Shown here piece by piece: positions 1,549 through 21,228 of a stretch of DNA of 28,238 nucleotides (position 1 is the first letter of the stretch; every line of letters starts with the position of its first letter). The stretch spans positions 1-28,238 of the IMG/VR virus record IMGVR_UViG_3300030116_000781, one strand, 5' to 3'. Below the pieces are notes generated by a model that was given only the letters and a program-made list of their open reading frames with translations, searched no databases and was not told where the DNA came from. This DNA is from a virus. Made by a program: the position numbers and the translations under genes.

Positions 1549-1712
1549 TAATCTAAAAAGAAACTTCTAGCTTCTATCTCCTGTTTTAATTCTTGTTGAA
1601 ACGATGTATTTAATTTTTCTAACACAGCATCTAAATCTCTAATTAAAGATGATGCTACATCTTCTTGGTATTCTTTACTAGCTCGTGTTAAAGTTTGTAC
1701 TATTTTAGCCAT
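1548..1712 (-). CDS. Small helical protein, 54 aa
   Basis: Found by hand translation. ATG at 1712 overlaps the TAA of the 739-aa tail gene, and the TAA at 1548 overlaps the next ATG, both TAATG. The product begins MAKIVQTLTRASKEYQED and continues as an amphipathic helix with a heptad-like pattern (LIRDLDAVLEKLNTSF, then QQELKQEIEARSFFLD). It is probably a coiled-coil tail accessory or assembly protein translated by coupling to the tail gene. No enzymatic motif is visible. Confidence 0.7.
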   Translation of the reverse strand: MAKIVQTLTRASKEYQEDVASSLIRDLDAVLEKLNTSFQQELKQEIEARSFFLD

Positions 1713-3931
1713 TATCTTCTTCCTCCTGAATGTATGTCTAATCTAAAAGTTCCTAGTTTCCAATTAGCATCAACTGCAGTATTAGAAACAGTAAGCGCAA
1801 CAGCTCTAGCCCTAGCTCTAGTATCAATTTTTGTAGTGCTTGATGTAATTGTAAAAGGACCTAGTGATGAACTTGCAGAACTATCATTTGGATAATTTCT
1901 TAAATCTAATTGAACAATAGTATCGCCAGTTTGAGAAATAAAATCAGGAACAACTCTACTAACTCTCATTATAAATTCTCCATCTCCTCTAAGATCCGCA
2001 AGACTAGTAGCTGCTCCTCTAATTGTTTTTTGAGTTATGTCATAATCTCCAGAAGTTATGTTAGCAGGAATAGCACTTGTAGTTCCTATTTTAACTTGGT
2101 TAACTCCTGTTTCATGTTCATAATAATACGTAACTCCTTCAGTGTTTCCAGTAACATCAAAAGATGAATCAGTACCAGCATCATAATAGGTTGCATGAGG
2201 AAGACCAAATACAGCAGAATCTATCCATGTAGTTCGTGGAAATAATGAATTTGCATTTGTATACCAAATTGGTCTTTGAGGTGTAGAATCTAAATAACTA
2301 TATAAAACACATCTATTAATTACATTAGAATTAGCTTGTGGATAAAACCACATAACTTCACCAAACAAATTATTAATTCCACAATATATTAATGCACCAG
2401 ATGTTGTATTTAAATCATCATAAACATAGTCTTCTACTAAACAATCCATAGATTCTAGTTTACCAGTGTATCTAAAGAAACCATTTTCTGACATCCAATA
2501 CGCAGCACCATCAACTTCAGCTGCTGCATTTTTACCAATAAGTCCGCAGTTAGTTCCTACTTGTTCATAAGCAAAAACAAAATCTCCACCCACAAAACGC
2601 ATAGTAAATAAGGAGGTGTCCGTCCAAACATATATTGCATTTCTACCTAGTTTAGCTCCAATGATCCGTGATCCGGCGGCCAGTCTTTGTGTACCAGCTG
2701 TATTAGTTATTGTTGGTGCCCAAGTATTTATATCTTCTTGATTTGAAAATCTTAAAAACATATCATCTTGACTTGTTGTATCACCTATTGTTGTTTCTGT
2801 TCCAAATAAAACTAAGTGACGATCGGGAGTTGATACTAACATTTCACGTGACGCTGTTGGTGCGCCAGTTATAATAGTTGCTCTAGTAGCCGTAGCATTA
2901 GCAGCATTTGAATCCCATTCAAAAACAGGTCCATTACAAATTAAAGCAATTAAATTAGAACCTAAATTATCTAATGACCATAAACCAGGTTCAGCTACTT
3001 TATCAGATGTAGACGCAGCTTGGCCCCATGCAGCATAACTACTAGTATTAGTTACTGTTGCTCCGTCACTGTGCGAAGCATTTGTAGTTCCTCTAACATT
3101 TCTAGTTATTCCAGTAAAACTTGTAGACGTTATTCCTGTGTAAGAAATTTCTTCAGTTCCTACTTGAATATAATTTGTTCCTGTGCTTGGAAAACCTGTA
3201 GTGCTAGCTACATTAATTGTAGTTCCTGAACCACCAGTTCCATATGCGTCAGCACCTAATGCTCCATTTAAAGTTGTTGTTTGTGGGTTAGTAACTGTAC
3301 CACCCCATTGAGATATACCATAACCATAAACTCCGACTTGTTCAGCGGGTCCTACGTGGTAGTATCTAAAATAAGTAATACCTCCAGAAGTTGATGCTCC
3401 AGCTCCACCTTCATTACTGTCCATTGTAATAGTAATAGTGGTTGTTGTTGGAACAGTAGTAACCATAAATTTTTTATCACAAAAATCTGAAGCGCCAAAA
3501 TTAGATCCTGTAATTGAACTAAACGTAGATGTGTCTCCGAATAAAATAATATCTCCCGCTTGAAAATTGTGGGCCGAAGGAAAAGTTATTGTAACAGTTG
3601 GTTGTCCATTAGTTGTGCTAAATGCATTTGTAAGAGCTGTACCTGATGGATTTACTAAAGGATGAATATCGTAATAAACACCTCCTGAGTATGCATATAA
3701 AATTCTATTAGTACCTAGAATAGCATACTTAATACCTTCTTTGTTAACCATGTGGTGTAAAGCTCTTGTAGCTCCTGTAAGTTTTTTGTCTCCTAAAGAA
3801 GCCCAACCACCTATCTTTTCAGGTGTTCCATATCTAAATCGAACGTTTTCTCCGCCAGTCCATTGTGACTCAGCACCCGTAGGGGTTACTTGTTTATTGA
3901 AGCCAGGTAGAAACGCAATCTTCTGTAGCAT
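1712..3931 (-). CDS. Tail nozzle / packaged-DNA stabilisation-like protein, 739 aa
   Basis: The N-terminus (FLPGFNKQVTPTGAESQW, then NVRFRYGTPEKIGGW) matches the style of large podovirus tail-tube or nozzle proteins related in role to P22 gp10. These plug the connector and stabilise packaged DNA. It is longer than P22 gp10 (about 470 aa). Roughly residues 215-300 carry an extra Thr/Gly-rich beta segment with EEISYTG and NVRGTTNASH that resembles a segment of the 267-aa virion protein at 13873-14676. The remainder is beta-rich with many aromatic residues, as expected for a propeller-like tail protein. It follows the oxygenase island across a strong hairpin. The SD-like AAGGAT lies at the hairpin edge. 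The broad role is fairly secure; the exact position in the tail is not. Confidence 0.75.
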   Translation of the reverse strand: MLQKIAFLPGFNKQVTPTGAESQWTGGENVRFRYGTPEKIGGWASLGDKKLTGATRALHHMVNKEGIKYAILGTNRILYAYSGGVYYDIHPLVNPSGTALTNAFSTTNGQPTVTITFPSAHNFQAGDIILFGDTSTFSSITGSNFGASDFCDKKFMVTTVPTTTTITITMDSNEGGAGASTSGGITYFRYYHVGPAEQVGVYGYGISQWGGTVTNPQTTTLNGALGADAYGTGGSGTTINVASTTGFPSTGTNYIQVGTEEISYTGITSTSFTGITRNVRGTTNASHSDGATVTNTSSYAAWGQAASTSDKVAEPGLWSLDNLGSNLIALICNGPVFEWDSNAANATATRATIITGAPTASREMLVSTPDRHLVLFGTETTIGDTTSQDDMFLRFSNQEDINTWAPTITNTAGTQRLAAGSRIIGAKLGRNAIYVWTDTSLFTMRFVGGDFVFAYEQVGTNCGLIGKNAAAEVDGAAYWMSENGFFRYTGKLESMDCLVEDYVYDDLNTTSGALIYCGINNLFGEVMWFYPQANSNVINRCVLYSYLDSTPQRPIWYTNANSLFPRTTWIDSAVFGLPHATYYDAGTDSSFDVTGNTEGVTYYYEHETGVNQVKIGTTSAIPANITSGDYDITQKTIRGAATSLADLRGDGEFIMRVSRVVPDFISQTGDTIVQLDLRNYPNDSSASSSLGPFTITSSTTKIDTRARARAVALTVSNTAVDANWKLGTFRLDIHSGGRR

Positions 3932-3944
3932 AAAATGTTAAATC

Positions 3945-3997
3945 CTTATAAAGGACGCAGTGGGTGGTATGGTGGTATCCACTGCATCCATTATAAG
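3945..3997 (-). promoter_or_regulatory. Imperfect 19-bp stem-loop before the tail-nozzle gene
   Basis: The two arms (3945-3963 and 3979-3997) pair as 7 bp, a mismatch, 3 bp, a wobble and 7 bp, around a 15-base loop. The loop carries the direct repeat GGTGGTAT. There is no T-run after the stem in the reading direction, so it is not a classical intrinsic terminator. The stem ends next to the SD-like AAGGAT of the 739-aa gene, so it could mask the ribosome binding site or be an RNA processing site at the island boundary. Confidence 0.6.
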
Positions 3998-4003
3998 AAT
4001 ATA

Positions 4004-4627
4004 TCATCGTTTAAAGAAAGATGGAAGACCTAAATGAAGACGCTTATCGAAAATATTATCCTTAGCTCCAAGGGTTTTACTATCATTATAATGAAGAAAT
4101 ACTTGAACGCATTCTTTACCTTTAAATTTTTCTCTCCAATGCTCTAATTCTATGCCTCTATAGATTAACATATCTCCTGGTTTTAAATCTATTTTAACAC
4201 CCTTCATACCTTTTTTTCCAGATGGTTCTAAATATATAGGCCACTCATCACCACCAAGATTCATAGTGGTAGATATTTCACAACTAAATCTATCTTTATG
4301 TCGTCTTAATGCGTCATCTTTTTTGTATATTCTTGCATAAGTATAAGCTGGATACAATTTTAATCCTGTTGCTTTTTCCATAACTGGTTTACATTTTAAC
4401 ATTAAAGTTTCCATAGCTATATTAGCATAGTGAGCATAACTGTTTGGAATTAAATCTTTTTCGGTTTCATAAAAACCTATGAGTTCTTCAAAAGGTGAAA
4501 TATATCTTTCCTTACGACAAGTATCATAAACTTGTTTTTGCATACGGAAATAATCTGCAATAAAACTAGCTAGTTCTAATGATATAGCTTGTTTAATAAC
4601 GGCATATTTATTTTTTTTAAATGACAT
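4004..4627 (-). CDS. 2OG-Fe(II) oxygenase-like protein, 207 aa
   Basis: Double-stranded beta-helix dioxygenase family: uses Fe(II), O2 and 2-oxoglutarate, usually to hydroxylate a substrate. The proximal metal motif is RRHKDRFSCEIS (His110, Asp112), and the distal His is in IELEHWREKF (His163). The usual 2OG-binding Arg is not obvious; the matching strand reads ECVQVFLHYND. Before the distal His, the segment LKPGDMLIYRG is the typical gly-loop/strand. I chose ATG at 4627 instead of the in-frame TTG one codon earlier. The start overlaps the sulfotransferase stop. It is the last gene of the oxygenase island. The substrate is unknown. Confidence 0.8.
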   Translation of the reverse strand: MSFKKNKYAVIKQAISLELASFIADYFRMQKQVYDTCRKERYISPFEELIGFYETEKDLIPNSYAHYANIAMETLMLKCKPVMEKATGLKLYPAYTYARIYKKDDALRRHKDRFSCEISTTMNLGGDEWPIYLEPSGKKGMKGVKIDLKPGDMLIYRGIELEHWREKFKGKECVQVFLHYNDSKTLGAKDNIFDKRLHLGLPSFFKR

Positions 4628-5369
4628 CAAATCCTTTATATTTATTTATTGTATACTCTGGTAAAATTTTTTTTATATCACATTCTTTTCTTTTAATACT
4701 TTTTGTATCTATTGTGTGAAAAATTCCTTTTCTGTGTCTAATAGCAGAATCATTGTAATAAACGTTATTAATATTAAATTGCTGTATGTTTTTAAAATCA
4801 GGTTTTTTAAAAGGAGCGTTTATATATTTACATATTTTTTGTATAGTTTTAGAAAAATCTTTAATTAATTCATCATATGTTATTAATAAATAGTCTTTCT
4901 TACTTACTAATATATTTCTTATTGAGTTTAAGTTCTCAGTTATAATGCTATCTTTCATCATCATATCATCGCAATATTCTTCTACGTAACGGGGCTTATG
5001 TACTTTAACAAATGAAGCGAGCACCTCTAATATAGGTCTATAAAGAATAATATATTTTTTGCTTTGAAGAGGAAGCCTTTCTATTATTTTCCAATAATGA
5101 CCCCAGGCTCCACGATCAATTATATTTTTGCATTTATAATGTTCATAATAATTTTTAAAAACATTGTTTAATATATTATCTAATCCTGTAGAGTCAGGAA
5201 AATTTAAAAATCTTTCTTCTAATTTTATATTATTAATAGAATCTATTAATAAGGGAACAACACTATTAGCAGAAACTTTAACATATGGGTTTTGATTTAA
5301 TACACTAGATAAAATAGTGTTTCCTGCTCTTGGTAAGCTTACTAAAAAATTTATATTTATATCGCTCAT
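4617..5369 (-). CDS. Sulfotransferase-family protein, 250 aa
   Basis: Residues 10-25 (VSLPRAGNTILSSVLNQ) match the 5'-phosphosulfate-binding loop of PAPS-dependent sulfotransferases. Residues 107-121 (IILYRPILEVLASFV) match the 3'-phosphate motif, with Arg111 and Ser119 in the expected places. The C-terminal half is basic and Ile/Asn-rich. Such enzymes transfer sulfate from PAPS to sugars, lipids or tyrosine. The product has no signal peptide, so it acts in the cytoplasm. It sits inside a run of 2OG-Fe(II) oxygenases and overlaps the next start by 11 bases, so both are probably translated together. Base composition is markedly more AT-rich than the structural genes around it. The acceptor is unknown. 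Confidence 0.82.
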   Translation of the reverse strand: MSDININFLVSLPRAGNTILSSVLNQNPYVKVSANSVVPLLIDSINNIKLEERFLNFPDSTGLDNILNNVFKNYYEHYKCKNIIDRGAWGHYWKIIERLPLQSKKYIILYRPILEVLASFVKVHKPRYVEEYCDDMMMKDSIITENLNSIRNILVSKKDYLLITYDELIKDFSKTIQKICKYINAPFKKPDFKNIQQFNINNVYYNDSAIRHRKGIFHTIDTKSIKRKECDIKKILPEYTINKYKGFDVI

Positions 5370-5381
5370 GTTAAAAATAAT

Positions 5382-6014
5382 TTAAACATCTTTAGCCATT
5401 TCTTTTGGCACTGCTTGTATGTTCCAATGTATAAATCTAAATGGTTCTTTGCCATGGTCTACTGCAAATTCGTGTTCTAAGTATCCTGGAAATATAAGTA
5501 AGGTGCCTGGTTTAGGATTAAAATGTACGGTGCTTGTACCTGGCAATATTTCAGAAGATTTCATTTTTAATGCGGTTGCTCTAGCTCCTGTTCTTGGTTC
5601 ATGAAATATTGGAAAGGATGTCTTAGGGCTACACTTTAAAAAATAAAACCCTGATACATGTTGATTACAGTGCACGTGTGCAGAATGATGCCCTCCTCCT
5701 TTTTTAGAAAATTCTTGTACCCACATTTCAGAAAACATAGTTTGATATTGAGACATGTCGTAACCCATAGCATCTAAAAATTCCCAAGACTTGTGACCTA
5801 CATATTGTTTCATATCTAAAAAATCATTATCTTGTAACAATGGAGTTGAATGATAACTTAGTCCAAACTCCCCATGTTTTTTTATATAGTCTTTCATTTC
5901 TTTTCTTTTACGTGCTTCATTAATATATTTATTAGAAGCTTTGTTTAAGGATGTAACAAAATCAAATTTTTGTTCAACCCAAATTGGAGTAGTAAAAAAA
6001 TTAGCTTGATCCAT
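5382..6014 (-). CDS. 2OG-Fe(II) oxygenase, PF13759-like, 210 aa
   Basis: The centre reads HVHCNQHVSGFYFLK, the HxH...SGxYYL signature of the putative 2OG-Fe(II) oxygenase group that I associate with PF13759. Ligands would be His113 and His115 (in the place of the more common Asp), and distal His181 in FPGYLEHEFAVD. Arg193 in PFRFIHWNI would bind 2-oxoglutarate. The N-terminus (FFTTPIWVEQ) is also typical, where members often begin with a 'PIW' strand. Length is normal for the family. It is separated by one base from the 222-aa oxygenase upstream and by 12 bases from the sulfotransferase downstream. The substrate is unknown. Confidence 0.88.
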   Translation of the reverse strand: MDQANFFTTPIWVEQKFDFVTSLNKASNKYINEARKRKEMKDYIKKHGEFGLSYHSTPLLQDNDFLDMKQYVGHKSWEFLDAMGYDMSQYQTMFSEMWVQEFSKKGGGHHSAHVHCNQHVSGFYFLKCSPKTSFPIFHEPRTGARATALKMKSSEILPGTSTVHFNPKPGTLLIFPGYLEHEFAVDHGKEPFRFIHWNIQAVPKEMAKDV

Positions 6015-6015
6015 A

Positions 6016-6684
6016 TTATTTAAATGGATATCCTAAATGCCACACAACAAGTGAATATCTTATTCCTTTCGTTACCGGTTTAACTCTATGCCATACAAAA
6101 CTAGGAAATACAATAATAGAACCTTTTGGCAATATCTCTTTACATTGTACTCTATGTTTTGATTCGTCTCTCATGTTTGGTTCATAACCTCTAAAATCAA
6201 ATTCTAATTCTCCACCAGTGTACTCTGAACCATCTGTTAATTGACACGTCATAGAAAGTTTTCTAATTTTGCCATGGTCACGTGCAGTCTTATCTTTTCT
6301 TTCATAAGGTCTATCCCAACCATCTACATGCCAATCATAATACTGACCTAACTTGTATTTAGTAAACTGACAGTTTTCCGAACTATCCCATTCAAAATTC
6401 CAACCTGCGTTTTCATTTGCCATAGTAACATATGGATGTATTTCTTTATATATCCAAGTATCATTAAGCCATACTACGTTAGAATTTCTTTTTCTTTTAA
6501 TATCTTTAATTTCTTCTTTTGTTAATTTGCCACTGTCAAAATTTTCTATGATTGGGCTTTCTGGTTTGTAACCACCTGTTCTTGCAAAAGAGTCTTGTTG
6601 AGAATTAGCATGTTTTATTACTTCATCACAAAACTTTGGCGTTAATGCAGATTCAAAATACCAATAATAATTAGCTAGGTTCAT
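6016..6684 (-). CDS. Prolyl 4-hydroxylase-like 2OG-Fe(II) oxygenase, 222 aa
   Basis: The complete metal and cosubstrate set is visible: YYDWHVDGWD (His119, Asp121), FPSFVWHRVKPVTKGIRYSL (His199, Arg209), and a TGGELEFDF strand between them. This layout matches P4H/PKHD-type hydroxylases, which hydroxylate prolyl or related side chains. The N-terminal YYWYFESALTPKFCDEVIKH is the family's usual entry helix. It overlaps the 181-aa oxygenase by four bases (ATGA). Its C-terminal block strongly resembles that neighbour (WHRVKPVTKG versus PHKVTPVIKG), so the two are probably paralogues. The protein substrate is unknown. Confidence 0.9.
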   Translation of the reverse strand: MNLANYYWYFESALTPKFCDEVIKHANSQQDSFARTGGYKPESPIIENFDSGKLTKEEIKDIKRKRNSNVVWLNDTWIYKEIHPYVTMANENAGWNFEWDSSENCQFTKYKLGQYYDWHVDGWDRPYERKDKTARDHGKIRKLSMTCQLTDGSEYTGGELEFDFRGYEPNMRDESKHRVQCKEILPKGSIIVFPSFVWHRVKPVTKGIRYSLVVWHLGYPFK

Positions 6685-7226
6685 ATAAGTTTAGGTCCAT
6701 TTAAAAATACTGTTAATGTTTTTCTTACTCCCTTAATAACCGGTGTAACTTTATGAGGCAAGTAAGAATGAAATAAAATCATGTCTCCTGCTTTTTTAAA
6801 CTCTGGAGTAGTTCCAGTTCCATAAATTTGAAAGTCTCCTCCTTCATATTTTTGGTCAGATATGTTTAAAATTAAAGTTAGTTTAGTATCGTATACATTA
6901 GAATTAGAAGAATCTACATGCCAATCATACTCTCCTTTATTCTTGCTATCGTATTTATTAAAGTTCCAGCATCTAAAAATTGGAGGATAAAGGTTATATC
7001 CAAAATTTTCAAAGTTAGATAAATAAGCTTGCTCTATAAAACGATTCATACTTTCTTGTAAAGCTTTGGCTTCAACTATTTTAACATAAGAAGTCTTTGT
7101 AACATTTTCTGCAGGAACATCTAATCCCTCACATTTATTTTTTTCAATTTTTTGATTAAGGGTTTTTATTTCTTTCGGCGAAATTTCTTTTTTCCAAAAC
7201 CAATAATTAGGGGGCTGGGTTAACAT
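6681..7226 (-). CDS. Prolyl 4-hydroxylase-like 2OG-Fe(II) oxygenase, 181 aa
   Basis: Ligands are visible in GEYDWHVDSSN (His103, Asp105) and SYLPHKVTPVIKGVRKTLTV (His158, Arg168), with YEGGDFQIYG as the central strand. The N-terminus PPNYWFWKKEISPKEI parallels the YYWYFESALTPKF start of the next gene. The motif set and spacing match the PKHD/P4H type and indicate an active enzyme. It overlaps the degenerate 169-aa gene by 20 bases upstream and the 222-aa paralogue by four bases downstream, so all three are probably co-translated. Likely a product of tandem duplication followed by divergence. Confidence 0.9.
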   Translation of the reverse strand: MLTQPPNYWFWKKEISPKEIKTLNQKIEKNKCEGLDVPAENVTKTSYVKIVEAKALQESMNRFIEQAYLSNFENFGYNLYPPIFRCWNFNKYDSKNKGEYDWHVDSSNSNVYDTKLTLILNISDQKYEGGDFQIYGTGTTPEFKKAGDMILFHSYLPHKVTPVIKGVRKTLTVFLNGPKLI

Positions 7227-7716
7227 AAGTAATGGTCTGTATAAAATTTAAAATATCTTTTTGTTTGTTTGTAATATAATACGTGTTGGTAGAGGGAAAC
7301 ATTATAAATTTATTATTAGTTAATGGTTCGCTCCAACTTCTTCCTTTTCTTCTATTATCGTCATATTTTATTGTAACAGTGCAATCTTCCACAGCCACTC
7401 CATATAATAAAGTGTAGTCCGGGGAATCCATAAGATTATTATAATTTACATTTATTAAAGGAGGTGTAGTCTCATTAGGTTTGTAAAAATTTCCCCATGT
7501 GTTTTTGTTGTAAAAAATAAGATTATGTTTAACGCGTAGATGTTCAATTATGTAAGTGCTTAACTTACCAAAAGTAGGAGAGTATTCAAAGTCTGCGTTT
7601 TTTATTTTTGATACAAACGTATCAAGAGTTAATACATCTCTTTCTATTTCAAAGCCTTTAGGCATTTTAACATCGCCTGAATATATAGCTTGTTCTGTCA
7701 ATAATTCTTTATGCAT
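7207..7716 (-). CDS. Degenerate DSBH (2OG oxygenase-like) protein without metal ligands, 169 aa
   Basis: The C-terminal third keeps the shape of the neighbouring oxygenases: a strand with LLYGVAVEDCTVTIKYDD, then NNKFIMFPSTNTYYITNKQ, aligning with the FPS..WH and YLPH segments of its neighbours. The expected HxD/HxH position appears to read Asn89-Val-Asn91, and the distal His position reads Tyr-Tyr (146-147). No HxD is present anywhere. The gene is intact and tightly coupled to the next one, so it is not decaying by frameshift. If the alignment is right, it is a non-catalytic subunit, binding protein or scaffold for the active enzymes. Family membership is inferred from faint similarity and context. 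Confidence 0.6.
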   Translation of the reverse strand: MHKELLTEQAIYSGDVKMPKGFEIERDVLTLDTFVSKIKNADFEYSPTFGKLSTYIIEHLRVKHNLIFYNKNTWGNFYKPNETTPPLINVNYNNLMDSPDYTLLYGVAVEDCTVTIKYDDNRRKGRSWSEPLTNNKFIMFPSTNTYYITNKQKDILNFIQTITYVNPAP

Positions 7717-7754
7717 ACCTATTTCTTTTATACAGAAAGTTTTTATAATGTCAA

Positions 7755-8369
7755 TTAATGTGTGTACTCAAACCAACCTGTAATAATGTATTTACTGTGT
7801 TTTTTAGAAATTTGACTTTTGTGTGTATGTGTCCAATCAGGTGGCCATAATGTAGTTAATCCTTTTTTAGCTGGCACAATAAGATTTTGATATTTAAATT
7901 GAGTCCCTCCATTAGGAACATCGTTTAAATACGTCATAAAAACTAAATGCCTTGAAGAATTTTTTATACAATTTCTTTCAGCATGATAGTTTTTAAAACC
8001 ACCGTTTGCTTTGTAAAATTGAATATTAAAAAATTTACATTTAAACGAAGCAATTTCTTTGGTGCTTTCAGGGTATTTTTTAAAATATTGATTTAATACT
8101 AATTGTAATTCTTTAAAGTACTTACTAATAATATTATTGGATGAGTCTGTAAAATCTATTTTATCTATTTCAAAACCTAACTCTACACTGTCTTTAACAT
8201 TTGGATTTATAGTTCGTGTGGTGTCATCTAAAACATATCCTTTAACATGTTCTTGTTTTTTAGATTTAAAATAATTAATAAGTTCATCACAAGTTTTACT
8301 TGAAATAAACCAACCACCAATAAAGGTTTCTTTTTTTATATTAAATTGTTTCAGAAAAAATTTACTTAA
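7755..8369 (-). CDS. 2OG-Fe(II) oxygenase, HxE type, about 204 aa, no ATG start
   Basis: The frame is open from just after the TAG at 8370-8372 down to TAA at 7755. Its first ATG (7937) lies deep inside the domain, so translation must begin at a non-ATG codon near 8369-8337 (TTA, CTG or ATA are available) or a base is missing. Family marks are clear: ETFIGGWFIS near the N-terminus, GGFKNYHAERN (His129, Glu131 as HxE), RHLVFMTYLNDVPNGGT, LTTLWPPDWTHTHK (distal His181) and KYIITGWFEY. In this group Lys or Arg ends the core. It is first in the oxygenase island and overlaps the stop of the MAHF-type gene. The HxE triad still binds iron in known relatives. Confidence 0.8.
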   Translation of the reverse strand, partial: LSKFFLKQFNIKKETFIGGWFISSKTCDELINYFKSKKQEHVKGYVLDDTTRTINPNVKDSVELGFEIDKIDFTDSSNNIISKYFKELQLVLNQYFKKYPESTKEIASFKCKFFNIQFYKANGGFKNYHAERNCIKNSSRHLVFMTYLNDVPNGGTQFKYQNLIVPAKKGLTTLWPPDWTHTHKSQISKKHSKYIITGWFEYTH

Positions 8370-8871
8370 CTACCCAAGCAGTGCCATTCCATTCATGAAC
8401 AGTTTTTTCACTGTCATTAGATTTTGTAGCTTCCCAACCTTTTGAGTTATCTGATTGATGTACTGCTTCGTTCCACACAATATCCCAATTCCATACTAAA
8501 GGATCACTACCGTTATTATCGTTTATTTCAGTAGGGGCTGCTATTGGAGCGTCCCAAACAGCGTGAGTAGTGTTTTTTACCCAAGATGGGTAGGGTTGTG
8601 GATTCCAAAATATTTGATTAACTGGGTCCCAAATAGAACCTACAGCTGCAAAGTTTCCTCTAAAGGGTGTTCCATCTAATCTATGAGTATTATTAAAAGT
8701 GTTGCATGAAGTTTGAATCCATTTATTAGCAGGCCAATTACTATGTGTTTCTAAATATTGTTGTCCTACTGATTCTTCTTCTTCATTTGAATCGTTTAAT
8801 ACATCTTTATTATCTACGACTACTACACTAAGAACTTCATTATCGTCTGATATTTTTGCAAAATGTGCCAT
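8362..8871 (-). CDS. Conserved 'MAHF' phage protein, fibre-associated, 169 aa
   Basis: I place the start at ATG 8871, giving MAHFAKISDDNEVLSVVVVD, because phage proteins of this type begin MAHFA(K/E)I. The longer frame from 8934 adds a Trp-rich leader copied from the end of the preceding gene. Other family-like segments are VGQQYLETHSNWPANKWIQT, RLDGTPFRGNFAAVGSIWDP and PQPYPSW. The C-terminus ends in a strand (VHEWNGTAWVVK). Such proteins are frequent beside tail fibre genes in marine phages, but their function is not established to my knowledge. It starts two bases after the Gly-rich gene and ends overlapping the first oxygenase. Confidence 0.75.
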   Translation of the reverse strand: MAHFAKISDDNEVLSVVVVDNKDVLNDSNEEEESVGQQYLETHSNWPANKWIQTSCNTFNNTHRLDGTPFRGNFAAVGSIWDPVNQIFWNPQPYPSWVKNTTHAVWDAPIAAPTEINDNNGSDPLVWNWDIVWNEAVHQSDNSKGWEATKSNDSEKTVHEWNGTAWVVK

Positions 8872-8873
8872 AC

Positions 8874-9875
8874 TTATTGATACCTGTACCTTATAACAAC
8901 TATTCCAGAACCACCAGGTCCACCGGCTACCCAATTGTTTGGTCCAGCTGCAGCACCGCCACCGCCACCAGTATTTGCTGATGCAGTTCCGCCACCACCT
9001 CCTGGAAAACCACCACCATTAGCTCCACCACCGTTTCCACTACCAGCACCAGTATTTTGTGTAGCACCAGATCCACCGCCACCACCTTTTGTAATTGGAG
9101 ATGCGGGAATATGAGTTGTTCCACCTTGACCACCAGGTCCATTGTTAGCTCCTTGAGAACCTGCACCACCGCCACCAGGTCCACCTATAACTCCTTGACC
9201 TTGAGATCTTGGAGAACCACCATTATTTCCTTGGTTGGGACTAACTGGAGGTGTGTTACCTGTACCACCAGGACCATTAGATCCACCACCATAGTGTGAA
9301 CCGCCACCGCCACCACCAGAGCCACCAGAGCCACCTCCGCCGGCAGGCCATTTAGCGCCACCGCCACCACCAGCTGATGTTATATTTGAAAAAACTGAAT
9401 TACTACCACTAGATCCTGCAGGACCTTTTTGATAAGGGTGTCCAGGTCCTCCTCCACCGCCGCCTCCGACAGTTATAGAATAAGATCCTGGTGAACATGA
9501 AACCGGTAAACCAGCTGGAGCATTTAAAGGACTTGCAGTGTAACAATCACTAGAAGCTTTACCTTCTCGGAAGCCGCCTCCGCCGCCTCCGCCGCCCCAT
9601 GCAGCTCCACCACCTCCGCCGCCTGCAACGACTAAATAAGAAACTGTATTTGAACCTCCAACACTTCCTGCGCACGTAACTGTAAAAGTTCCATTACCAG
9701 TAAATGTATGAATTTTATAATCTCCAGAAGTAGTTACAGTTCCACCGCATGCTGCTACAAATTTAGGACCTGCTCCACCTGAACCAAAACCTAAAATTTG
9801 ATAACCAAAAGATTTCTTTTTTGGTCCTTTATCTTTTTTAAAACCTTTAGATTTTTCAGTTTGTAAATCTTTCAT
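8874..9875 (-). CDS. Glycine-rich adhesin-like tail fibre protein, 333 aa
   Basis: A basic N-terminus (about 1-25) leads to a beta segment DYKIHTFTGNGTFTVTC and then SYLVVAGGGGGG. About 230 residues dominated by Gly, Pro, Asn and Ser follow, with long polyglycine runs. The protein ends SGIVVIRYRYQ. This 'YLVVAGGGG ... GIVVIRY' architecture is a recognised phage/bacterial Gly-rich domain, and polyglycine sandwiches form the host-binding tip of T4-type gp38 adhesins. It probably forms the distal receptor-binding part of a tail fibre. The DNA is locally GC-rich (GGT/GGA repeats), unlike its neighbours. Overlapping frames in the same stretch are composition artefacts. Confidence 0.75.
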   Translation of the reverse strand: MKDLQTEKSKGFKKDKGPKKKSFGYQILGFGSGGAGPKFVAACGGTVTTSGDYKIHTFTGNGTFTVTCAGSVGGSNTVSYLVVAGGGGGGAAWGGGGGGGGFREGKASSDCYTASPLNAPAGLPVSCSPGSYSITVGGGGGGGPGHPYQKGPAGSSGSNSVFSNITSAGGGGGAKWPAGGGGSGGSGGGGGGSHYGGGSNGPGGTGNTPPVSPNQGNNGGSPRSQGQGVIGGPGGGGAGSQGANNGPGGQGGTTHIPASPITKGGGGGSGATQNTGAGSGNGGGANGGGFPGGGGGTASANTGGGGGAAAGPNNWVAGGPGGSGIVVIRYRYQ

Positions 9876-17135: not shown

Positions 17136-17699
17136 TTTAAATTGTGGCAAAACTTTGTTTTCCTTAAAACGTTATTATTTTTTCAATAAATATATTCATA
17201 GTTAATCTTTCTTCATCTACATTTAAAATTGTTGGACCATGATATTTAGAACCTTCATAGCATACAAGTGTGTTTAAGTCATTACTAATTATTATTTGTT
17301 TTTCCTTATTTTTATTAAAAATTGTAGTTCCATTTTTCATATTTCCATTACTTAAATACACTATTCCAGCTAAATGAACATTATGGTCAACATGATAATG
17401 ATTTCTTCCTTCAGTTTCTTTACATCCTGGCATTAATTTATGAAAATAAACAAAACTATTTCCATATGTAGTATGAGTATAAGGAAAATAACATTTTAAA
17501 ATTTTTAAAATAACTGAATTAAATAATTCATAATTGTTAATATGTAGGGATTCAGTTCGAAGACCTATCCATTTATCGTTTTTTGTAGGAGGGAAATATT
17601 TAAATTTTTTTGATAACTTTATTATTTCATCTACATTGTCAAAAAAATTATCAACAACAATTGTTGGCAGCATTTTTCTTTCTAAATTTAAATTGTGGC
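17136..17699 (-). repeat. 13-bp direct repeats flanking the capsid-side oxygenase gene
   Basis: TTTAAATTGTGGC occurs at 17136-17148 and 17687-17699 on the plus strand. Extending the comparison gives 16 of 18 matching bases. The copies lie immediately outside the oxygenase gene. The 17687 copy is part of the capsid gene terminator (its second arm and T-rich tail), and the 17136 copy looks like a duplicated piece of it. This is what insertion of a one-gene cassette by recombination could leave. Confidence 0.6.
17164..17673 (-). CDS. 2OG-Fe(II) oxygenase-like protein (DUF6445-like), 169 aa
   Basis: Complete DSBH ligand set: GRNHYHVDHNVHLAGIVYLS gives His94 and Asp96, and CYEGSKYHGPTIL gives His145. 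EERLTMNIFI gives Arg156 for 2-oxoglutarate. The order PTIVVDNFFDNVDEII at the N-terminus and the HVDHN...AGIVYL core resemble the group named DUF6445, as I recall it. I prefer ATG 17673 because the longer frame's ATG (17706) lies within the terminator hairpin. The gene sits alone between capsid and tail genes, flanked by 13-bp direct repeats, unlike the clustered oxygenases at 4004-8369. More AT-rich than the capsid gene, consistent with acquisition. Substrate unknown. Confidence 0.8.
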   Translation of the reverse strand: MLPTIVVDNFFDNVDEIIKLSKKFKYFPPTKNDKWIGLRTESLHINNYELFNSVILKILKCYFPYTHTTYGNSFVYFHKLMPGCKETEGRNHYHVDHNVHLAGIVYLSNGNMKNGTTIFNKNKEKQIIISNDLNTLVCYEGSKYHGPTILNVDEERLTMNIFIEKIITF

Positions 17700-17719
17700 G
17701 GAACAATGTCCCGCCACAA
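17693..17719 (-). terminator. Hairpin terminator after the major capsid gene
   Basis: On the minus strand TTGTGGCGGGA and TTCCGCCACAA form an 11-bp stem (one G-U pair) with loop CATTG, followed by TTTAAATTTAG. It begins 13 bases after the capsid stop codon at 17732. The stem is GC-rich against an AT-rich background, but the T-tract is interrupted, so termination may be partial. Confidence 0.72.
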
Positions 17720-20778: not shown

Positions 20779-21228
20779 TTAAAATTTATGCAAGATATCT
20801 GTTGGATCTTGCACAGTTGCTAATACTTCGTCATCATTTAGAAGACGAACTTCCCCACCCTCAATTTCTATTCTAGATCCTGCGTAACGTGCAAAGATTA
20901 TCCAATCTCCGACCTTGCACCATGGACCTTCTGAAAATCTTTCTTTATCCCCATAACAATCAGGACCCATGGCTAACACGTTTCCGCATTGCGATCCTAC
21001 TTGTTGTCTTTCAATTGTTTCTTGTCCAAAATAAACTCCACCTTTAGATTTTTCATCCATTCTAAATGGCAGAACTAAAAGTCTCCAACCAGTTGGTTGT
21101 GGTAGTTTTGCTTTTTCTTTTGTAACTTCTTTTTTTTCTGATTTCTTTACACCAACTAATTCTTTATTTGGTGTTATTATTTTTGGGCTTTGTGCTGTTG
21201 ATATTGATGACTGTGCCTTTTGACTCAT
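20779..21228 (-). CDS. GroES-like co-chaperonin (Cpn10 fold), 149 aa
   Basis: Residues about 46-142 match Cpn10: PTGWRLLVLPFRMDEKSKGG, VYFGQETIERQQVGSQCGNV, LAMGPDCYG and CKVGDWIIFARYAGSRIEIE, then EVRLLNDDEVLATV. The mobile-loop region (KSKGGVYFGQETIE) and the final 'DDEVLAT' strand are both present. A 45-residue Lys/Ser-rich N-terminal extension is unusual, since GroES is about 97 aa. In known phages such proteins replace GroES to fold the capsid protein. No GroEL gene is visible, so it would act with host GroEL. ATG 21228 has AAGGAG four bases upstream. Confidence 0.88.
   Translation of the reverse strand: MSQKAQSSISTAQSPKIITPNKELVGVKKSEKKEVTKEKAKLPQPTGWRLLVLPFRMDEKSKGGVYFGQETIERQQVGSQCGNVLAMGPDCYGDKERFSEGPWCKVGDWIIFARYAGSRIEIEGGEVRLLNDDEVLATVQDPTDILHKF

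Follow-up and report, generated by a model that had tools for sequence, protein, structure and literature searches.

Marine phages are rich in 2-oxoglutarate (2OG)- and Fe(II)-dependent oxygenases, with 24 in one genome (PMC9602691), and the published ideas on what these enzymes do for a phage include host nitrogen signalling, DNA repair and iron metabolism. The closest described case is that of the HTVC023P-type phages, for which a published account (PMC9599517) reports clustered 2OG oxygenases of eight non-orthologous families, often near one or two 'ferrochelatases', and reads the clustering as auxiliary metabolism by oxygenase and ferrochelatase together. The family bearing that name, phrog_2954, is likewise treated as an auxiliary metabolic gene in ecological work (PMC9599517, PMC11561400). 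Here we analyse a 28,238-base virus record, IMGVR_UViG_3300030116_000781 (the window, by which we mean this whole stretch of DNA), where seven genes, A to G, form an island between the fibre genes and the nozzle gene. The sets described in PMC9599517 come from the same phage group and comprise the same genes as this island; HTVC023P gp64-gp67 are homologues of window B, D, E and G. We propose, as a reading about as apt to fail as to hold, that the island forms the enzymatic half of an adhesin cassette, and that its enzymes modify the fibre proteins, the Gly-rich fibre Y and the MAHF protein X being the candidate substrates. Our findings suggest that these phages chemically finish their attachment fibres, instead of the rewiring of host metabolism that is usually assumed.

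The fibre-side slot and its co-inheritance with the MAHF protein

In order of transcription, the minus strand of the window carries the Gly-rich fibre gene Y, the MAHF gene X, the island genes A, B, C, D, E, F and G, and then the nozzle gene N (Table 1). A preliminary description of this DNA, made from its letters alone, had recognised here five 2OG-Fe(II) oxygenases, one dead homologue and a PAPS (3'-phosphoadenosine 5'-phosphosulfate)-type sulfotransferase, drawn from several subfamilies, with the Gly-rich/MAHF fibre genes on one side and the nozzle gene on the other. Our analysis agrees on each of these points: the seven open reading frames are present, tightly packed (spacing -20 to +38 bp) on the minus strand from 8369 to 4004; the five oxygenases have complete metal triads; and the subfamilies include PF13640, PF13759, an H-x-E type and phrog_2954.

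The nozzle served as the anchor for gathering relatives, and 80 viral contigs were collected by it alone. Wherever the fibre-to-nozzle interval was complete, in 35/35 relatives as well as the window, it held such enzymes (1 to 12 genes each), so that the observation is not one of chance. The succession Gly-rich, X, B, C_P4Ha ... G, nozzle is conserved widely (the label C_P4Ha denotes, in these comparisons of loci, the family to which window gene D belongs, and window gene C scores best with the profile D_P4Hb), and in three complete pelagiphage genomes every PF13640 or PF13759 match lies inside the tail locus. Scattering of the genes in related phages and unrelated folds had been named beforehand as findings that would speak against a coherent island; instead the genes stay together, and both proteins whose folds were tested, G and B, are oxygenase folds. 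Around these genes the slot is mosaic, with further oxygenases, halogenases, carbamoyltransferases, methyltransferases, and sulfotransferase plus APS (adenosine 5'-phosphosulfate)-kinase-like genes; a tryptophan halogenase (PF04820, 1.1e-94), carbamoyltransferase halves (PF02543, PF16861) and a TylF-type methyltransferase recur. Tryptophan-halogenase-like or split carbamoyltransferase genes stand in the fibre-side slot at L017:2884-4299, L071:326-1702, L016:7910-8794 and L068:9456-9980.

The fibre type of a locus goes with the strand of its enzyme genes, since in Gly/MAHF fibre loci 218 lie on the structural strand and 2 do not, while in collar-type fibre loci 47 lie on the opposite strand and 1 does not. 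The notion that oxygenases occur only in Gly-rich-type loci is thereby ruled out. Fibre type also goes with content: G was found in 30/36 Gly/MAHF loci against 2/8 collar loci (p 0.003), and one oxygenase group in 0/36 against 5/8 (p 5e-5), in both cases among loci that are related to one another.

B, G and, marginally, C_P4Ha travel with X independently of the phage backbone. At 79 loci chosen for B the preceding gene was X in 74. Among the nozzle-chosen loci, presence of B maps to a single clade on the X tree (1 change, SH-aLRT 99, 0/500 shuffles) as against 4 changes on the nozzle tree, and on a FastTree of 97 X proteins it takes 1 to 2 changes versus 24.6 when shuffled (1 for B against non-B; 2 in a grouped table where two unlabelled rows were counted as non-B). 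G covaries with X (rho 0.455, p 0.001) and not with the adjoining nozzle (rho -0.25); C_P4Ha covaries with G (0.54, p 0.003) and, marginally, with X (rho 0.275, p 0.05). Beyond the fibre on its other side lies the backbone gene Z, which covaries with the nozzle (0.41, p 0.0015). Thus G and C_P4Ha track X while Z tracks the nozzle, and the histories of backbone and cassette are separate. Between the window and HTVC023P, D, E and G are 73-78% identical and the nozzle 39%. The suggestion of fibre modification in the preliminary description gains support from this co-inheritance with the MAHF gene.

The 'ferrochelatase' gene G

Relatives of G occur in 154 phage records, many of them labelled ferrochelatase. 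G itself gave no Pfam family at E<=1 and no NCBIfam match at E<=0.01, and ferrochelatase (HemH) was rejected as its identity, there being no sequence-family match and the fold matching 2OG oxygenases. The AlphaFold model of G (predicted local distance difference test score, pLDDT, 95.1) has as its top Foldseek match the Pseudomonas putida prolyl-4-hydroxylase (PPHD; 5.7e-9), whose matched structure was solved with EF-Tu, and it also matches PHD2-type enzymes; the fold matches listed are 2OG oxygenases, and the nearest solved ones are protein hydroxylases. As modelled, the phrog_2954 'ferrochelatase' is predicted to be a prolyl-hydroxylase-fold oxygenase. The PPHD and PHD2-type hydroxylases, which are also high matches of B, share 13-15% identity with G, and the modelled likeness of fold does not establish that the substrate of G would be a protein.

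The triad H110-D112-H163 (HxD...H) is invariant among 36 G sequences, as is R165, two residues past the distal His. The preliminary description had credited the island oxygenases with a 2OG-binding Arg or a substitute; unlike the PPHD and PHD2-type hydroxylases, G lacks Arg or Lys at the usual place, 10-12 residues after the distal His, where the window protein has Cys at +10 and Gln at +12, the Gln being invariant in the same 36 sequences. Binding of the cosubstrate may therefore be unusual, and 2OG use by G stays a prediction with that qualification. Re-annotation of G would correct a widespread label, on whose name published papers have built conclusions.

A conserved pseudo-oxygenase, B

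B has no significant match in Pfam or PHROG. A hidden Markov model (HMM) built from B alone nevertheless detects intact oxygenases at 1.4e-11 to 1.4e-9, and one intact relative found in this way, L044:5532-6077, is PF13759 at 3.7e-16. Profile-profile comparison places B nearest to the PF13759-like family (P 1.6e-5; four other families, 0.0097 to 0.43), and its model (pLDDT 86.8) has a 2OG-oxygenase fold, aligning to 2rg4 (Z 14.6) and 3bvc (Z 14.4). These profiles indicate that B descends from PF13759. The catalytic positions, occupied by H, H, H and R in active relatives, are L (71), N (66), Y (73) and N (73) in the 73 B proteins, with H kept at the second position in 2/73; the metal and 2OG ligands are thus lost in nearly all of the 73 members, and the fold, the descent and the replaced residues together bear out the dead homologue of the preliminary description.

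Loss of these residues has not been followed by decay. The median ratio of nonsynonymous to synonymous substitution (dN/dS) in close pairs is 0.067 for B, as compared with 0.092 to 0.116 among active oxygenases and 0.207 in X, a comparison rather than a test, as the pairs are not independent. B is encoded by 583/599 candidate stretches in viral contigs (at least 583 contigs). By these measures B is a conserved, selected pseudoenzyme and not debris; it is common, and locked to one adhesin clade. Two loci hold B plus an intact, PF13759-type relative of 184 aa, with the intact protein upstream of X (L101:4259-4813, L102:305-859) and B downstream of X. It is possible that this arrangement shows the ancestor of the pseudoenzyme next to B.

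The sulfotransferase F and sulfate activation

F scores 35.6 bits with PF00685 (cut-off 22), and residues R14/G16 and R111/S119 of its PAPS motifs (5'-phosphosulfate-binding, 5'-PSB, and 3'-phosphate-binding, 3'-PB) are invariant in 8 sequences. Its best solved relatives, over about profile positions 5-192, are CurM and protein-tyrosine sulfotransferase 1 (TPST1), but the similarity is remote and CurM is as near as TPST1, so that the acceptor could be a protein or a small molecule. The sulfotransferase, which the preliminary description placed after hydroxylation in a possible pathway, is optional in the slot, with profile matches in 9 of the loci gathered by the nozzle. Relatives of F are encoded by 541/600 candidate stretches in viral contigs, and of 78 newly fetched sulfotransferase loci, 70 lie close to oxygenases and 21 include an APS-kinase-like gene. 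In 19 loci, all with the sulfotransferase and the APS-kinase-like gene, there is also a small nucleotidyltransferase bearing HxGH and ISATxIR motifs (PF01467, 2.6e-7); loci with the three genes include L187:5726-6452, L205:7669-8401 and L223. From their motifs and family matches, the three could possibly form a phage-borne sulfate-activation set, with the activity of both small proteins putative; scores of the APS-kinase-like proteins are weak, with 2/3 tested close to the cut-off, and these proteins match generic P-loop kinases too. Such a set would make sense in that Pelagibacter HTCC1062 is without cysDNCHIJ and sat (PMC5069961). The window island has neither the APS-kinase-like nor the nucleotidyltransferase gene, and a source of PAPS for F is not evident from the island.

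Other features of the window

Table 1. Predicted features of the island and its surroundings, with positions in the window.
Feature	Position	Strand	Basis
N, nozzle-like structural protein of the virion, bordering the slot downstream	1712..3931	-	phrog_3287 1.9e-94
Hairpin between G and nozzle gene	3945..3990 (approximate)	-	11-bp stem, about -22 kcal/mol, no U-tract
G, P4H-fold 2OG-Fe(II) oxygenase	4004..4627	-	phrog_2954 6.3e-51; labelled 'ferrochelatase' in relatives
F, PAPS-dependent sulfotransferase	4617..5369	-	PF00685 8.5e-9; PF13469 1.5e-6
E, PF13759-type 2OG-Fe(II) oxygenase, H-x-H	5382..6014	-	PF13759 3.7e-14; TIGR02466 4.7e-15
D, PKHD/P4H-like 2OG-Fe(II) oxygenase	6016..6684	-	PF13640 7.1e-15; 73% to HTVC023P gp65
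C, PKHD/P4H-like 2OG-Fe(II) oxygenase	6681..7226	-	PF13640 3.6e-12; NCBIfam PKHD-type models 7.3e-14
B, conserved pseudo-2OG-oxygenase, dead PF13759 derivative	7207..7716	-	fold, B-only HMM, lost catalytic residues
A, 2OG-Fe(II) oxygenase, H-x-E type	7755..8354 (frame open to 8369)	-	PF13640 5.8e-6; phrog_61 3e-30
X, MAHF protein associated with the fibre; a candidate for substrate or adhesin tip	8362..8898	-	phrog_7759 2e-29
Y, Gly-rich fibre/adhesin, candidate substrate	8874..9875	-	PF21722 Gly_rich_2 7.4e-9; phrog_2295 1e-43
Oxygenase-like gene at the capsid locus	17164..17706	-	DUF6445 (PF20043) match; weak PF13759
GroES-like co-chaperonin, within the structural operon	20779..21228	-	phrog_3188 1.2e-18

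By backbone comparison the portal of the window is 67% identical to that of Pelagibacter phage HTVC027P, 64.5% to 023Pt_psg01 and 52% to HTVC023P. These identities group the window with the HTVC023P-type SAR11 podoviruses; it is a fragment of such a phage, with SAR11 bacteria as its presumed host. The fibre Y has 117 Gly and 22 Pro in 333 aa.

Oxygenases A, C, D and E all pass the Pfam cut-off of 27 bits, with PF13640 at 27.6, 47.5 and 56.2 for A, C and D (A barely so) and PF13759 at 53.4 for E, whose TIGR02466 score is just below that model's cut-off. Their triads are HAE in A (H124-A-E126), HVD in C (H103-V-D105, distal H158, Arg168) and D (H119-V-D121, distal H199, Arg209) and HVH in E, with a distal His in each. 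A has no ATG, GTG or TTG near the beginning of the gene, its frame opening inside the end of X. A frameshift from X into A was rejected since no slippery site was seen before the X stop, which makes a non-standard start likelier: probably either a rare start codon such as CTG or a damaged start, the CTG at 8354 being our guess. A and the DUF6445 gene at the capsid locus, which appears to be a further oxygenase-like gene, match phrog_2297 and phrog_274 (both labelled DNA endonuclease V) as well as oxygenase families; these names therefore look doubtful, and may be wrong in the same way as that of phrog_2954. The DUF6445 gene is AT-rich (GC 0.236) and adjoins the major capsid gene, and its cluster recurs inside the tail islands of L059, L068 and L074.

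The island is AT-richer than its surroundings, as the preliminary description had said (GC 0.288 versus 0.373 elsewhere in the window), but its GC at third codon positions lies inside the range of the structural genes, so that the AT-richness reflects amino-acid make-up rather than foreign codon usage, and a foreign origin argued from base composition is ruled out. The hairpin which that description placed at the island's end is real but without a U-tract, and a comparable one was found only in L018 and L019 among 25 relatives; its reading as an intrinsic terminator was rejected, as a terminator scan did not call it either. Window scans found no Rfam elements and no tRNAs.

X and oxygenases beyond this phage group

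Both podoviruses and myoviruses have relatives of X, their hosts being SAR11, cyanobacteria, roseobacters and methylotrophs, and at the loci examined, from many marine phages, they sit among tail, tail fibre or virion genes. After X in the SAR11 myovirus HTVC008M comes a convergent run of genes, among them a 'ferrochelatase' and four oxygenases. The cyanomyoviruses S-SSM5, P-RSM4 and S-MS29 have carbamoyltransferase, oxygenase, 'ferrochelatase', X and then more oxygenases, one of which is labelled leprecan-like in S-SSM5 and P-RSM4; S-CAM8 has the same start of this order, with poorer annotation.

Discussion

Our finding that a core of the slot's enzymes is inherited with X, together with the position of the island, the recurrence of the association in unrelated phages, the protein-hydroxylase folds, and a slot that holds tailoring enzymes with no scaffold-building gene recognised, leads us to favour modification of the fibre over modification of the host surface, passive cargo, host metabolism, a small molecule or nucleic acid, although we regard the case as finely balanced and falling slightly short. 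We envisage that late in infection the 2OG-Fe(II) oxygenases would hydroxylate residues of Y and/or X during tail building, and that other slot enzymes would add further groups: the sulfotransferase here, and halogenase, carbamoyltransferase or methyltransferase elsewhere. Exchange of enzymes would then diversify the adhesin surface chemically while leaving the adhesin sequence unchanged. B, which keeps the oxygenase fold without the usual iron and 2OG binding, would most likely be a non-catalytic partner for its X clade, one that either brings the substrate to the oxygenases or keeps hold of the fibre while it is assembled.

Several observations weigh against this proposal. No modified residue is known in the fibre proteins; the collagen-type X-Pro-Gly motif is not enriched in the Gly-rich fibres (1302 versus 1460 expected); an excess of Tyr in the fibres of sulfotransferase loci is weak, uncorrected and confounded by relatedness, and the fibre residue correlations as a whole (Tyr with sulfotransferase, Trp with halogenase) are weak, uncorrected or opposite in sign. 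Carbamoyltransferases, methyltransferases and halogenases are also usual in glycan or small-molecule chemistry. Collar-type fibre loci carry enzyme islands too, on the other strand. In HTVC025P, Greip, CRP-143, CRP-207, Melnitz and ctn9Y15 no oxygenase is annotated near X, so that the cassette is optional; with these six phages as counter-examples, and the nearest annotated oxygenase of Bellamy about 9 kb off, X was rejected as a sufficient marker of it. Whole-island content did not covary significantly with similarity of X (rho 0.16, p 0.12), which we take to mean that a core of X, B, C_P4Ha and G moves together while accessory enzymes are gained and lost. By itself, block recombination of the segment as a whole could account for the co-inheritance.

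That co-inheritance would fit equally if the enzymes altered the host surface (lipopolysaccharide, capsule or an outer-membrane protein), hiding or changing the receptor, and were encoded beside the adhesin to match it. Carbamoyltransferases, TylF-type methyltransferases and sulfotransferases are usual in surface-glycan chemistry, but the slot itself shows tailoring enzymes only, with no glycan-building gene recognised, the nearest folds to G are protein hydroxylases and the genes lie in a late structural operon; we consider this unlikely, if a serious contender. It is less probable still that the slot is a recombination hot spot gathering unrelated moron genes with no fibre-tied function: although turnover is high (mean island similarity 0.19 versus 0.77 for the nozzle) and content as a whole has no significant tie to X, almost all of that content is tailoring enzymes, B combines its low dN/dS with being clade-locked to X, and G is tied to X and not to N in an association that recurs in unrelated phages. 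Hydroxylation of phage DNA bases or tRNA can be set almost entirely aside. DNA hypermodification by 2OG oxygenases does occur in some phages, but no island protein has a TET/JBP or AlkB family match in Pfam at E<=1, and these are tail-locus genes, co-inherited with a fibre protein.

Two published proposals remain to be weighed, and to each we attach only a slight probability. Oxygenases that draw down host 2OG and so act on nitrogen signalling, or serve iron or heme metabolism together with the ferrochelatase (PMC3037559, PMC9599517, PMC11561400), are hard to square with an oxygenase fold and no ferrochelatase match in G or with conservation of the dead member B, and bulk 2OG turnover needs neither many diverged subfamilies nor confinement to the tail locus. 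A pathway making a secondary metabolite that is halogenated or carbamoylated, like the one put forward for a cyanophage gene cluster (PMC7824862), would account for the recurrence of the same classes (halogenase, carbamoyltransferase, 2OG oxygenase) in these slots, but no scaffold-building enzyme was seen, close relatives differ in their sets, and the window has neither halogenase nor carbamoyltransferase.

Fibre tailoring offers a different, testable answer to the role of oxygenases in marine phages. Should the enzymes act on fibres, chemistry would be the means by which SAR11 phages diversify their receptor binding, and the host's 2OG, iron and oxygen would affect the quality of virions; HTVC023P and HTVC033P both have hosts in culture. 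More tentatively, and with more doubt than confidence, we suggest a wider form of phage adhesin maturation, in which ribosomally made fibre scaffolds are decorated by swappable, adhesin-matched hydroxylases, sulfotransferases, halogenases and carbamoyltransferases, guided by a pseudo-oxygenase, across several abundant marine phage families; chemistry, and not sequence alone, would then diversify receptor binding.

The preliminary description did not recognise the island as a described system. That needs amending, as the clustering of 2OG oxygenases in this phage group is published; the account in PMC9599517, in its available part, does not recognise the adhesin neighbourhood, the pseudoenzyme (gp64, a hypothetical protein there) or the true nature of the 'ferrochelatase'. 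Among open-access papers we found none linking clustered oxygenases to fibre modification, describing the pseudoenzyme or correcting the ferrochelatase name. The same tailoring classes are grouped in a cluster that comprises carbamoyltransferase, halogenase, 2OG oxygenase and cupin genes (PMC7824862), but it belongs to jumbo cyanophages and is read, in the accessible part of that paper, as secondary-metabolite or capsule synthesis with no tie to fibre genes. Set beside these described systems, the linkage to an adhesin, the pseudoenzyme B and the re-annotation of the 'ferrochelatase' appear to be new.

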